A stretch of DNA of 35,314 nucleotides, taken from positions 1-35,314 of the forward strand of contig JAUSKB010000008.1 in assembly GCA_030647415.1 (NCBI GenBank), given 5' to 3'. Under the pieces are notes generated by a model. That model had not been told where the DNA came from. It saw nothing but the letters and a program-made list of their open reading frames with translations, and searched no databases. Position numbers and translations under genes: made by a program. Position 1 is the first letter of the stretch. Every line of letters starts with the position of its first letter. Positions 4,501 to 33,214 of this stretch are shown here, one piece after another. The DNA is from a bacterium. GTDB lineage: Bacteria > Patescibacteriota > Minisyncoccia > UBA6257 > GWB1-50-10.

Positions 4501-4605
4501 ACCCTGTTAGAGTTTTGCACATAGTCTTACGTACTGCACACATACTTGTACCAGCAGACGAATTATACCTTTGAAAGTTGCGCGCGTGCAAAACTCTAAT
4601 AGGGT
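4501..4605. mobile_element. MITE-like inverted-repeat element, copy 1
   Basis: The element is 105 bases. The left end ACCCTGTTAGAGTTTTGCAC is complementary to the right end over 20 bases with one mismatch. The interior is non-coding. Its right half (a stretch around ATTATACC and then TTGCGCGCGTGCA) is recognisably related to the interior of copy 3. It sits between two divergent genes. The right end runs into TATAAT (4605-4610), 11 bases before the next start codon. The flanks are compatible with a TA duplication here, but other copies do not confirm it. Confidence 0.8.
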
Positions 4606-7557: not shown

Positions 7558-7659
7558 ACCCTGTTAGAGTTTTACCCGCACGCCGTTATCTTGATACCGA
7601 GTAGCATACAATACTAATCGAATGCGTGCAATAAAGTGTTTGTAAAACTCTAACAGGGT
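7558..7659. mobile_element. MITE-like inverted-repeat element, copy 2
   Basis: The element is 102 bases with perfect 18-bp ends: ACCCTGTTAGAGTTTTAC at the left and its complement at the right (7642-7659). The interior is non-coding. It lies 22 bases past the rpmB stop. The flanks (TTC on the left, AAA on the right) show no target duplication. Confidence 0.8.
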
Positions 7660-8733: not shown

Positions 8734-8735
8734 GC

Positions 8736-8775
8736 GAATATACCGTATATAACGGCCGTTATATACGGTATATTC
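8736..8775. repeat. Perfect 40-bp palindrome, ACGGCCGT family copy P1
   Basis: It begins two bases after the stop codon of the hydrolase gene. Each half is GAATATACCGTATATAACGG or its exact complement. The central 38 bases have the layout AATATACC-N7-ACGGCCGT-N7-GGTATATT shared with 15652-15689 and 16386-16423. There is no T-tract. Confidence 0.85.
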
Positions 8776-9320: not shown

Positions 9321-10217
9321 TCATTTCACCTGCGCCTTCCGGCCCCAGAGGTAGAGGAGCGGGCTTGCGACGAAAATCGAGGAGTAGGTGCCGAACATGG
9401 TGCCGACGAGCATGGTGAGTACAAAATAGAAAAGTGAGGTCGGGCCGAATATGAGGAGTGCGACCAAGACGAGAATGAGCGTGAGCGAGGTGTTGAACGA
9501 CCGCACATAGGTTTCCTGGACACTCTGGTTCACGATGACCGCGAGGTCCACGCGCTTCCCCTTCTCCTTGAGTAAATGTTCCCGAATCCGGTCGAACACC
9601 ACGATGGTGTCGTGCACCGAGAACCCCATGACCACGAGGAGGGCGACGATGAAATTCGTGTCGATTTCAATGCCTTTCCAGTTGCCGAGAATGGCCAGCA
9701 TGCCAGTCGGGATGATGACGTCATGGAACAACGTGAGAAGTGTCACCACGCCGTATTTCCACGACCGCACCGGTTCCGAAACCTTCCGGAAAGCAAAGGC
9801 GACGTAGAGCGAGATGCCGAGAAGCACAAGGACAATCGCCCAAAGCGCTTTCGTGCGGAGCTCGGACCCGATAACCGGACCGATGTTCGAGAAGCTCCGT
9901 TCCTGGTACTCCCCTATGCCGCGTAGCACCGTCTGATAGGTCGCGTACTCGGTGGGGGTGATACTTGGCAGGCGGATGAGAAAATCCCCGCCGCTCGCCC
10001 GCTTCACCGTCGCCTCATGTGCGGGCACGGCAACATGGAGCACTTCCACAAGCGCCTGTTCGGTCGGGGCGGAATCCATGAAGGCGACCTGCCACTGCGA
10101 GCCGCCCTTCAGGTCTATGCCCTGCCGGAGACCGAAAACGGCGATTGCGATGATGCTCGCGGCGACCACGACGGCGGAGAAGCCGAAGAACCAGTGTTTT
10201 TTGGAAATCAAATCCAT
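9321..10217 (-). CDS. secF: Protein translocase subunit SecF
   Basis: SecF with SecD uses the proton-motive force to pull secreted proteins out of the SecYEG channel. The protein has 298 residues with six membrane helices. The family segments are visible: GIDLKGGSQ after helix 1 (about 33-41), the periplasmic P1 domain (about 43-120), IGSELRTKALWAI leading into helix 2, GFSVHDTIVVFDRIRE (helix 4-5 region) and QSVQETYVRSFNTSLT. It lies downstream of secD in the same leftward unit but is separated by a 210-base nested repeat element. The start ATG overlaps the end of that element: the element's terminal CTAACAGGAT contributes the A and T of the ATG. Confidence 0.97.
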   Translation of the reverse strand: MDLISKKHWFFGFSAVVVAASIIAIAVFGLRQGIDLKGGSQWQVAFMDSAPTEQALVEVLHVAVPAHEATVKRASGGDFLIRLPSITPTEYATYQTVLRGIGEYQERSFSNIGPVIGSELRTKALWAIVLVLLGISLYVAFAFRKVSEPVRSWKYGVVTLLTLFHDVIIPTGMLAILGNWKGIEIDTNFIVALLVVMGFSVHDTIVVFDRIREHLLKEKGKRVDLAVIVNQSVQETYVRSFNTSLTLILVLVALLIFGPTSLFYFVLTMLVGTMFGTYSSIFVASPLLYLWGRKAQVK

Positions 10218-10425
10218 CCTGTTAGAGTTTTACCCTGTTAGAAATTTGCATATTAATTTATTTGCCATACACATGCCAGTGCCAAAGCAGAATGTATACC
10301 GAAAAAGCAGCGCGCATGCAAATCTCTAACAGGGTGAACACACAATCCGTTGGATGTAAAAAAATTGTTGTCGTGTAAATAAATTTTCATAAGAAATCTT
10401 TGTATTCGTAAAACTCTAACAGGAT
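10216..10425. mobile_element. MITE-like element, copy 3 (outer), interrupted by another copy
   Basis: The outer ends are a perfect 18-bp inverted repeat, ATCCTGTTAGAGTTTTAC (10216-10233) and its complement (10408-10425). The span is 210 bases; removing the 104-base inner element (10232-10335) leaves about 106 bases, the size of the intact single copies. It fills the secD-secF gap. Confidence 0.75.
10232..10335. mobile_element. MITE-like element, copy 4 (inner, nested in copy 3)
   Basis: The left end ACCCTGTTAGAAATTTGCAT and the right end ATGCAAATCTCTAACAGGGT are complementary over 20 bases with one mismatch. The element is 104 bases and lies 16 bases inside the left end of the outer copy. 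Its interior (GCCAAAGCAGAATGTATACC and a GCGCGCATGCA end) is related to copy 1. Confidence 0.78.
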
Positions 10426-10436
10426 AAATAGGAAAT

Positions 10437-11705
10437 TTATTGCTTCGCAGGCGTCACCGTCTCACGGCTCATGTAGAGGCGGAGGAACGACCGGGTGATA
10501 GTAATGGCGGAGAACATGCTCATGATGACACCGAGGAAGAGCGTGAGCGCAAACCCACGCACGAAGCTTGAGGTGAAGGAGTAGAGCACCGCGGCGGTGA
10601 TGAGCGTGGAGATATTCGAATCACGAATGGAGGTCCACGCCCGCTTGAACCCCTCCTCGATGGCTGTTTTCCGGAGAAAGCCGCGCTTCAGCTCCTCCTT
10701 AGTCCGCTCGAAAACGAGGATATTCGCATCCACCGCCATACCGATGGAGAGGATGAACCCCGCGATGCCGGAGAGCGTCATCGTGACTCCCGTGAGCTTG
10801 AAGAGCGCGGCGGTGAGCGCGATGTACATGAGGAGCGCCGCGGCGGCGAAGACGCCGAGTGTCCGGTAATACAGGAGCATGAACAGGATAACCATCATCG
10901 TCCCGATCGCGCCGGCAAGCACGGCCTTCGTGAGCGAATCCTGCCCGAAGTCGGCGTCCACCGTCTGCTGATTCACGAGTGTGATGGGCGCGGGAAGCGC
11001 GCCGGCGTTGAAACGCTCGACGAGCGTCCGCGCCTCCTGGAGCGTGAACCTGCCGGTGATCTGCGCCTTGCCGCCGCTGATCTTCTCCTGCACGACCGGC
11101 GCCTCGATAAGCTGGTTGTCCAGGAACACCGCAATCGGCTTTCCGACGTTCTTGCCCGTCAGCTCCTCAAACAGCTTCGCGCCCTCATCATTGAACTCCA
11201 AACTCACCTGTGCCGCACGGGTCACGGAGTCGAGGGTGAGTTGCGCCCCCTTCACGTAGCGGCCGGTGAGCGCAGTCGGGACGAATGCGGTCGTCGAGGT
11301 TCCGTTCACGTCCACCTGGGTCACCTCCCGGAATTCCAAAAACGGCGTCTCACCGATCTCCTTGATCGCCTGATTCACGTCCTTTATGCCGGCAAGCTCC
11401 ACCACGAGCCGCGTCCGCTCGCCCGCAACCTCGGTGTACACCCGCGGTTCGGAGACACCGAACAGGTTTACCCGGCGTTCGATAACATCCCGGAGGCCCC
11501 CGATGACCGATTCCTGGTCAGCACCCTGGACATTCGAGAGGTCCATCTCATAGGTCAAGACGCTCCCGCCCGCGAGGTCGAGGCCGAGCTTCCACGGCAG
11601 GACATGACTCCACCGCCAAAAAAGCGGCTGGTACGAAAAAAGCCCTGCGGCGACCGAGAGCGCAATCGCGACGACGATCCACACGCGAAGGCGACGATAC
11701 TGCAT
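10437..11705 (-). CDS. secD: Protein translocase subunit SecD
   Basis: SecD is the larger partner of SecF in proton-driven late translocation. I start at the ATG at 11705 (MQYRRLRVWIV), giving 422 residues; the track's 40-residue extension overlaps the divergent gene. Helix 1 is followed by GLDLAGGSVLTYEM, then the periplasmic region with ERRVNLFGVSEPRV and FNAGALPAPI, and the C-terminal membrane part with GMAVDANILVFERTKEELKRG. The length is short compared with E. coli (615) but usual for compact SecD proteins. Its promoter must lie in the 29 bases shared with the divergent gene at 11735. Confidence 0.96.
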   Translation of the reverse strand: MQYRRLRVWIVVAIALSVAAGLFSYQPLFWRWSHVLPWKLGLDLAGGSVLTYEMDLSNVQGADQESVIGGLRDVIERRVNLFGVSEPRVYTEVAGERTRLVVELAGIKDVNQAIKEIGETPFLEFREVTQVDVNGTSTTAFVPTALTGRYVKGAQLTLDSVTRAAQVSLEFNDEGAKLFEELTGKNVGKPIAVFLDNQLIEAPVVQEKISGGKAQITGRFTLQEARTLVERFNAGALPAPITLVNQQTVDADFGQDSLTKAVLAGAIGTMMVILFMLLYYRTLGVFAAAALLMYIALTAALFKLTGVTMTLSGIAGFILSIGMAVDANILVFERTKEELKRGFLRKTAIEEGFKRAWTSIRDSNISTLITAAVLYSFTSSFVRGFALTLFLGVIMSMFSAITITRSFLRLYMSRETVTPAKQ

Positions 11706-11734
11706 ATATCGTGCTCTAGTGTATACTAAGCGTG
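11706..11734. promoter_or_regulatory. Very short divergent promoter region
   Basis: Only 29 bases separate the secD start from the gene at 11735. TATACT (11722-11727) ends 7 bases before the rightward ATG, and on the minus strand TATACA lies about 14 bases before the secD ATG. The two -10 boxes overlap in AGTATACT, so both transcripts would have almost no leader. Confidence 0.5.
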
Positions 11735-12760
11735 ATGAAGTATCAACTGACCACGCTCGTCTTGGGCGAAGTGTCTCGGGAGATGCGCGGCACCATCTTC
11801 CAAATGAAGACCCTCCGGAGCGCACCGCACTACTTCGAGGTGTCCGTCCCCCACCAGGTCATGGTCGGCGAGGAGCGTCACACCATCGACGGACGTGAAG
11901 TAGTGTTCGACCTGAAGGGCTACCCGCCGGATATCCTGCTCATTCAGACGACCACGGAGGTCCCCGACATCTTCAGCGAGGATATCTTCACCCTCGAGGA
12001 GCAGATCTACAACCAATGCCGCGAGATCTTGGAACGGCACGGTGGCAACCGGCGCTTCAGTGAGATGTACTCGATTTTCGAGGTTGCTGGATATAAAGGC
12101 GACCCGGAGCAGTTCATGCCCCATGCGTCGCGCATGGCCTCGCTCCTCAAATCGGAGCGGGTTGAGCTTGACCCGCGGGAGGTCGAGTACACGCTCGCCA
12201 CGCAAATCAAGTACGCCCGGCACGACCTCGCCATCATCGATTGGGACGGCGCCTTCCTCTTCGACATTGAAGGTGTCTTCGCGCCAACCGTGGAGCTCTT
12301 GACGCTCGCGAACGTCCAGCTCCTCCGTCACCGGATTACCGACCGGCGGCTCGACGAGCACCTCGAACGCATGGCCTCCCTGGTAAAGACCATGCCGAAA
12401 AAACTCTCCATCTTCCGACCGACGGCGAAGGAAATCGACCGGCAACTTGAAGAGATCGTCCGCTACCGAATGCTCGCCATCCAGGCATTCCAGACCGTCG
12501 AACGTGAGATTAAGCTCATCGGCGACTGGTACTCGGCGCGCATTTTCGATATCGCGGCACGAAAGTTCAAAATCCTCGAGTGGCGCGACTCCATCAAGGA
12601 GAAGCTGGAGTTTATCGAAGACATCTACACGATTGTGGTGGAAAACTTCGGCCTCTCCCGCAAGGACCGCGCCGAGTTCGCGCAGATCATCTTCTTCTTC
12701 ATTCTCCAAATCGGCTGGCTCGCGCTCATCATCCTCGAATTCATTTATTTCACCCGATGA
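11735..12760 (+). CDS. DUF155/RMD1-like (YagE family) membrane-anchored protein
   Basis: A protein of 341 residues. The N-terminal half is mixed alpha/beta, with DVPDIFSEDIFTLEEQ-type sequence in the middle. The C-terminal half is helical and ends in one hydrophobic helix (about 316-338, FFFILQIGWLALIILEF) after a charged stretch (KILEWRDSIKEKLEFIEDIY). This order, long helices with R/K-E pairs and then a terminal anchor, resembles the RMD1/RMND1/YagE family, but I recognise it by layout rather than by diagnostic motifs. The ATG at 11735 or the adjacent GTG is the start; the message looks leaderless. Its stop overlaps the next gene by ATGA, so the two are probably translated together. Confidence 0.5.
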   Translation: MKYQLTTLVLGEVSREMRGTIFQMKTLRSAPHYFEVSVPHQVMVGEERHTIDGREVVFDLKGYPPDILLIQTTTEVPDIFSEDIFTLEEQIYNQCREILERHGGNRRFSEMYSIFEVAGYKGDPEQFMPHASRMASLLKSERVELDPREVEYTLATQIKYARHDLAIIDWDGAFLFDIEGVFAPTVELLTLANVQLLRHRITDRRLDEHLERMASLVKTMPKKLSIFRPTAKEIDRQLEEIVRYRMLAIQAFQTVEREIKLIGDWYSARIFDIAARKFKILEWRDSIKEKLEFIEDIYTIVVENFGLSRKDRAEFAQIIFFFILQIGWLALIILEFIYFTR

Positions 12761-15610: not shown

Positions 15611-15651
15611 CATCAACGGTCTATAATGACGGCAAACACACTCCAAGGATA

Positions 15652-15689
15652 AATATACCATTAGCGACGGCCGTCACTAATGGTATATT
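15652..15689. repeat. 38-bp palindrome, ACGGCCGT family copy P2
   Basis: AATATACC-ATTAGCG-ACGGCCGT-CACTAAT-GGTATATT, palindromic with one mismatched pair. It lies 36 bases past the PaaX-like stop and about 58 bases upstream of the FKBP start. Each end reads outward as TGGTATATT, an extended -10-like sequence. Confidence 0.85.
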
Positions 15690-16379: not shown

Positions 16380-16385
16380 TTCATA

Positions 16386-16423
16386 ATTATACCATTAGTG
16401 ACGGCCGTAGCTAATGGTATATT
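16386..16423. promoter_or_regulatory. 38-bp palindrome P3 carrying the PaaX-like gene's -10
   Basis: ATTATACC-ATTAGTG-ACGGCCGT-AGCTAAT-GGTATATT. On the minus strand its end reads TGGTATAAT, an extended -10, with only TATGAA between it and the PaaX-like ATG. The palindrome therefore overlaps the promoter, the arrangement expected of an operator. Confidence 0.7.
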
Positions 16424-21165: not shown

Positions 21166-21197
21166 TCATTCTAACATTCTTAAGAATGTTAGAATGA
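21166..21197. repeat. Perfect 32-bp palindrome P5
   Basis: TCATTCTAACATTCTT joined directly to its exact complement. It lies in the divergent space between uvrC and the membrane-protein gene at 21272. The same 32 bases occur at 25451-25482. Confidence 0.9.
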
Positions 21198-25448: not shown

Positions 25449-25484
25449 TCTCATTCTAACATTCTTAAGAATGTTAGAATGAGA
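25449..25484. repeat. Perfect 36-bp palindrome P6, same sequence as P5
   Basis: TCTCATTCTAACATTCTT joined to its exact complement; the inner 32 bases equal P5 at 21166-21197. Preceded by TTTT and followed by TTTTT, it could terminate both the rightward small gene and the leftward uppP. Confidence 0.9.
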
Positions 25485-27936: not shown

Positions 27937-28041
27937 ACCCTGTTAGAAATTTACACACAAACATCTAAGATTTAAAAACATCAACAATGTTAAAAAAGAT
28001 ACCATTTGATACGCAGATTGTTTGTAAATTTCTAACAGGGT
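27937..28041. mobile_element. MITE-like inverted-repeat element, copy 5
   Basis: The element is 105 bases with perfect 19-bp ends (ACCCTGTTAGAAATTTACA and complement at 28023-28041). The interior is AT-rich and non-coding. It lies between hisS and the amidohydrolase gene. Flanks TTT/TTA; no clear target duplication. Confidence 0.8.
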
Positions 28042-32014: not shown

Positions 32015-32130
32015 GTCAAATCTCGCTGCTCCCCCTGCTGGACGCGTTCACTTGTGGTGAGCGGAGCCGAACCAGAACCGTGGATTGGAGGGAAGTGGCG
32101 GCGGAACTCTCGCTCATACCGGTGTTCGTA
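32015..32130. repeat. ~116-bp direct repeat, copy A
   Basis: About 90% identical to copy B at 33098-33214 by eye, sharing GACGCGTTCACTTGTGGTGA and the flanking segments. It lies upstream of the TrpF-like gene and, read on the minus strand, ends in TTGACG, a -35-like box. An ORF crossing it is open here but not in copy B. Confidence 0.8.
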
Positions 32131-33097: not shown

Positions 33098-33214
33098 GTC
33101 AAGTCTCGCTGCTCCCCCTGCTGGACGCGTTCACTTGTGGTGAGCGGAGCCGAACCAGAACGGCGGATTGGAGGGGGTAGCGGCGGAACTCTCGATGATA
33201 CCGGCGTTTGCGTA
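33098..33214. repeat. ~116-bp direct repeat, copy B
   Basis: See copy A at 32015-32130. It lies upstream of the gene at 32165 in the same relative position and orientation, and on the minus strand ends in TTGACA. Confidence 0.8.

Follow-up and report, generated by a model that had tools for sequence, protein, structure and literature searches.

Nested insertion of short inverted-repeat elements between secD and secF in a Patescibacteria genome, and a related superfamily found at start codons

Two copies of one family of short inverted-repeat elements lie between secD and secF in the window (the whole stretch of DNA analysed here, 35,314 nt, from a 964-kb draft genome in 38 contigs), and there is a solid case from alignment that the inner piece is a 106-nt insertion in the outer element, since the rejoined outer element matches intact copies across the joint and the inner core matches full-length single copies. 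Most probably these are non-autonomous, MITE-like elements moved in trans by a transposase, the second having inserted in the first: an AT-type copy stands directly before the secF start codon, and an AC-type copy 16 nt inside its left end. Taken alone, the locus is an event of an ordinary kind in an apparently undescribed family; greater novelty attaches to the superfamily to which both copies belong, whose members may target start codons.

The outer core, CCTGTTAGAG...CTCTAACAGG, occupies positions 10218-10423 (206 bp), or 10216-10425 with its matching outer bases AT..AT, and its ends form an exact 18-bp inverted repeat, ATCCTGTTAGAGTTTTAC (10216-10233 against 10408-10425). The inner core, CCTGTTAGAAATTT...AAATCTCTAACAGG, spans 100 bp (10234-10333), carries ends of a different subtype (AC..GT, AAATTTGC/GAGATTTGC) and begins exactly 16 nt past the start of the outer core; an earlier note on this DNA had placed it 16 bases inside the outer left end. 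The block reads left-left-right-right, the two left and two right ends all belonging to a single repeat family. The net extra DNA amounts to 106 nt (10234-10339), namely the inner core and six bases gained with it, GTGAAC (10334-10339), as judged from a joint rebuilt from homologous copies; the same gain is seen in a nest on contig C20. When 10218-10233 is joined to 10340-10423, the resulting 100 nt can be aligned over their full length with intact single copies elsewhere in this genome. The best match, C19:75848-75944, is identical over the first 25 bases (25/25), a stretch that includes the joint, and clearly homologous thereafter; further single copies also align with what is left of the outer element on the right, its end included (10340-10425). 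The inner core in turn resembles full-length single copies at C20:10763-10870 (82%) and C37:31000-31114 (78%). The nested insertion that the earlier note had proposed is thus confirmed, with some adjustment of its sizes: the inner element, given there as 104 bp, measures 100 bp (core), 102 bp (with the paired C..G) or 106 bp (net insertion) according to the boundary chosen, and the outer remainder, given there as about 106 bases, is 100 nt.

The secF gene (9321-10217, minus strand; Pfam SecD_SecF_C, 1.2e-51) starts against CTCTAACAGG; its ATG is the first codon past the outer element, which ends on that ATG, and the first two bases of the outer left end overlap the start codon. The outer element and the stop codon of secD (10437-11825, minus strand; Pfam SecDF_P1_head and SecD_SecF_C) are about 12 nt apart. 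The gap between the two genes is 219 nt (206+13) in the window, as compared with mostly 5-30 nt in 29 relatives of the same family, none of which has an element there. Relatives carrying the outer element alone, which the earlier note had suggested looking for, were likewise absent among these 29, and the order of events accordingly rests on copies elsewhere in the genome. Those copies include singles of the outer class, so that a single-element state does exist, and, as single copies are about 100 bp long, the inner piece does not represent the usual middle of some longer element class; neither of the two findings that the earlier note had named as refuting its reading was made.

Within this genome, a loose end pattern gave 99+98 matches, against 26+23 for the control. 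Strict two-ended pairs of about 100 bp numbered 44, against none for the reversed pattern, and the strict end pattern was absent from 243 other genomes of the order; the pairing of ends is accordingly far beyond chance. No fewer than 48 different paired copies were read. They are short, non-coding and multi-copy, with inverted ends of 16-18 bp; their interiors can be aligned and oriented, the ends being conserved and the middles divergent. Single copies with paired ends occur in the window itself at 4503-4603, 7560-7657 and 27939-28039. The exact two-ended CCTG pattern had no match in a species-level genome collection, from which the window's own genome is possibly absent, and viral contigs yielded two lone end matches only. 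The window also contains repeats of other kinds: a direct repeat (32015-32126 and 33098-33208, 1083 nt apart, 96% identical over 78 nt and next to a stretch at 88%), and short near-perfect palindromes (ATATACCATTAGYGACGGCCGT..., TCATTCTAACATTCTTAAGAATGTTAGAATGA) at 15649-15689, 16383-16423, 8734-8774, 21166-21197 and 25451-25482, which are unrelated to the CCTGTTAGA family.

An insert is found at the identical 16-nt position in six copies, that of the window and five others, each time after TTTAC (TTTTAC in the window), and four of the six are complete nests. Further nests have the insert at a GTATAC in the interior, at GCACGC or 28 nt in from an end; elements are also stacked end to end, and one 6-mer is common to some neighbouring copies. 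The repeated hits at the 16-nt position and the stacking show that each copy brings new target sites. They also favour mobility, in keeping with the transposition that the earlier note had read from the nesting. Adjacency to start codons differs between the types: 8/11 AT-type copies of this genome adjoin one, as compared with 8/38 AC-type copies.

The family belongs to a widespread and apparently undescribed group. Core-end pairs (CCYGTTAGA-N66..96-TCTAACRGG, about 100-120 bp) were found in 124 of the 384 class genomes, the control giving zero matches; the window's genome has 67 and others up to 33. Interiors differ between genomes, and the end subtypes are matched within each element (positions 10-12). 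In a species-level scan, for which core ends plus ATG were required for specificity, all informatively named records among the matches listed were Patescibacteria, including Nomurabacteria, Wolfebacteria, Kerfeldbacteria, Kaiserbacteria, Yanofskybacteria, Doudnabacteria and Zambryskibacteria. The open-access literature searched contained no description of these ends or of such elements in Parcubacteria. At four loci in other genomes of the class (L147:975-1080, L148:981-1086, L149:976-1079 and L150:945-1052), a complete tRNA gene lies inside a pair of CCCGTTAGA ends (tRNA-Gly, Ala, Val and Ala, respectively), with only about 12-20 nt from end to tRNA; the tRNAs may have been captured, or the ends may act as processing stems.

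In relatives within the class, superfamily members mostly stand right after the A of an ATG start codon, often with an exact 4-bp duplication. Among 74 elements collected without selection for ATG, 54 ends abut an ORF (at least 60 codons; start codons here are ORF calls, not experimentally mapped starts) that begins exactly at the element boundary, and 0-4 ends lie at any other offset. Exact 4-bp direct repeats flank 29 of the 74, as compared with a shuffled mean of 7.1 and maximum of 16. A larger set of 154 elements, about half of them ATG-selected, includes 131 that are start-adjacent; in 74 of these 131 the exact duplicate tracks the gene's own bases (TGAA, TGGA, TGAG, TGCG, TGTA or TGGG), and in 71 it is preceded by A. 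Since the duplicate follows the gene's bases after an A, the event that these joints show would be ATGNN -> ATGNN-T[element]A-TGNN, in which an intact start codon is kept. Stacked copies at one locus (L304) suggest that the rebuilt target has been used again. In genome G458, three identical 105-bp copies (L156:497-601, 1530-1634 and 1822-1926) occupy consecutive junctions of a ribosomal-protein operon; each ends exactly at an ATG, without a 4-bp duplication, and a TAA stop precedes two of the left joins, as though insertion had occurred within a TAATG stop/start overlap. An N-terminal extension of the protein from the duplicated upstream ATG was considered and rejected, the frame being mostly stop-closed or out of phase. 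In the sampled loci, only about 5% of start codons have a Shine-Dalgarno-like motif before them.

The flanking bases follow another pattern in the window's genome. The terminal bases just outside CCYG..CRGG are matched, C..G or T..A. Next to CCCG copies, the outer 4 nt form direct repeats in most cases (4/6); in the CCTG class both flanks read outward TTYA or TATA with strict polarity, TTCA being paired with TTTA in 18/39, and direct repeats are rare, for which reason a plain 4-bp duplication was rejected as the rule for this class here. The window joint, where the earlier note had suggested looking for a target duplication, has the left flank TTTA (10229-10232) and gained TGAA (10335-10338) where a copy of TTTA would be expected: four nucleotides were gained, as in a 4-bp duplication, and the copy is not exact. 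Both nests whose target is known by homology, that of the window and that on C20, gained TGAA beside a target TTTA. The 4-nt length at the joint thus fits staggered insertion and its sequence does not fit simple copying. A 'coupling sequence' model of the tyrosine-recombinase kind was ruled out by the fixed polarity of the flanks at both ends. A 35-nt hairpin, CTCTTCGAGTCTGAGACTCTCAGAGTCGAAYGA, which is not a tRNA, occurs seven times in this genome (C19:144925, C20:10732, C29:6014, C33:13244, C37:31139, C38:13083 and C19:93224), each time with TTYAY on one side and an element's CCTG end on the other.

We propose that a trans-acting transposase would recognise the ends over some 12-16 bp, and that the target would be cut at TNNA-like words, the two cuts staggered by 4 nt, and the element joined in. 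Start codons may be preferred or best tolerated as targets, through target preference, selection against other sites or both. In the branch of this genome, one 4-nt flank would usually be carried with the element rather than copied from the target; this would account for TTTA...TGAA at the joint in the window as well as for the outward TTYA, whose polarity is fixed at either end.

Bacterial MITEs are inverted-repeat elements that are not autonomous and depend on a DDE transposase acting in trans. The present family shares with them a size of about 100 bp, the lack of an ORF, matched terminal inverted repeats, numerous intergenic copies, nesting and, in most related genomes, 4-bp duplications; it differs in that it inserts one base into start codons, that the duplication is mostly not exact in this genome, and that no parent transposase was found in a search of the window's genome, which covered DDE_Tnp_1 and Y1 only. 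The single DDE_Tnp_1 gene (L120:1104-2045) was rejected as a parent, being part of an insertion sequence with other inverted ends of about 20 bp, ACTTGCTCTGTAGAAAACATC, whose flanks continue the inverted repeat. Nor was any element longer than about 300 bp with the family's ends seen in the loci from other genomes. A MITE-like origin is favoured by the homology across the joint, the five further inserts at 16 nt, the complete nests and stacks, the empty gap in relatives, the strict pairs private to this genome, and the class-wide core ends with their start-codon positions and gene-tracking duplicates; it is weakened by the missing transposase, by the mostly duplication-free CCTG class and by the three G458 copies.

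The most serious alternative, which we nevertheless consider rather unlikely, is single-stranded DNA movement of the REPIN or IS200/IS605 kind, in which a Y1 (HUH) enzyme would cut 3' of TTYAC and the right flank GTRAAC would move along, without duplication. A REPIN consists of two inverted conserved ends forming one long hairpin (PMC3116915). The present elements have the same architecture, with about 100 bp, two conserved inverted ends of about 16 nt, a variable middle and a whole-element hairpin (MFE -41.4 as compared with -18.5 for shuffled sequences), and they too form species-specific populations in a genome with REP-type Y1 genes, of which there are two (L109:1201-1875 and L110:1276-1929, minus strand). 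However, they differ from REPINs in their position at start codons, their single ends are not small REP palindromes and fold worse than shuffled sequences (mean MFE -1.0 as compared with -2.3), and each Y1 gene is bracketed by an inverted motif of its own (AAAAAGGGTGTCAGGAACCCTTTTT and CAGAGGCTTCGCCTCTG, respectively) that differs from the element ends, with no CCTGTTAGA end nearby; both were rejected as parents. With IS200/IS605 and its non-autonomous derivatives the family shares insertion beside a short fixed word, as TTYAC precedes most CCTG copies, and a flank apparently carried along in the two nests of known target, where the gained bases are not a copy; it differs in having long symmetric inverted ends instead of subterminal hairpins, and in the 4-bp duplications of the superfamily. 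The Y1 route would explain the carried flank and the strict flank polarity, but not the gene-tracking exact 4-bp duplications common in relatives, nor the direct repeats at CCCG copies.

Improbable is a conserved, immobile leader RNA that would regulate translation as a hairpin before the AUG, the nested appearance being due to duplication of the leader. The position exactly before start codons, the ends matched by subtype and the strong fold of the secF leader strand (z -8.3) would agree with it, although strong folding is expected of any inverted-repeat element. Against it, Rfam gives no match, the interiors vary from genome to genome, most AC-type copies here do not adjoin a start codon (the 8/38 above), and the duplications, nests and stacks are in keeping with insertion of DNA. 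On the gene strand, G-U is not in excess of A-C among the stem mismatches, for which reason RNA-level selection on the stem was rejected; a regulatory role acquired after insertion is possible, but without support in this analysis. Finally, that the extra 16-nt end arose from repeat ends by a small duplication or by recombination, with the outer right end an unrelated neighbour, might be entertained for the two of the six copies in which the outer remainder is missing or not resolved (L041 and L058), but is very improbable for the window, given the homology of the remainder over its whole 100 nt and the exact inverted repeat of the outer ends.

Returning to the MITE-like reading, we propose tentatively, and with slightly more doubt than confidence, that a Patescibacteria superfamily of about 105-bp elements takes start codons specifically as its target, entering one base in with a 4-bp stagger and rebuilding both start and target, and thereby colonises operons, including ribosomal ones, and stacks, the window's lineage having shifted to a carried 4-nt flank. 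Patescibacteria genomes are small and compact, and short mobile elements seem little described in them, none having been found in the literature searched. If the proposal is true, landing on a start codon and regenerating it would be an unusual choice of target for a transposable element, and it would place a long hairpin directly before the AUG of basic genes such as secF and those of ribosomal proteins. Elements in this position would offer a natural test of translation initiation in these bacteria. The nested copies serve as recorded empty sites, from which the way insertion works can be read.
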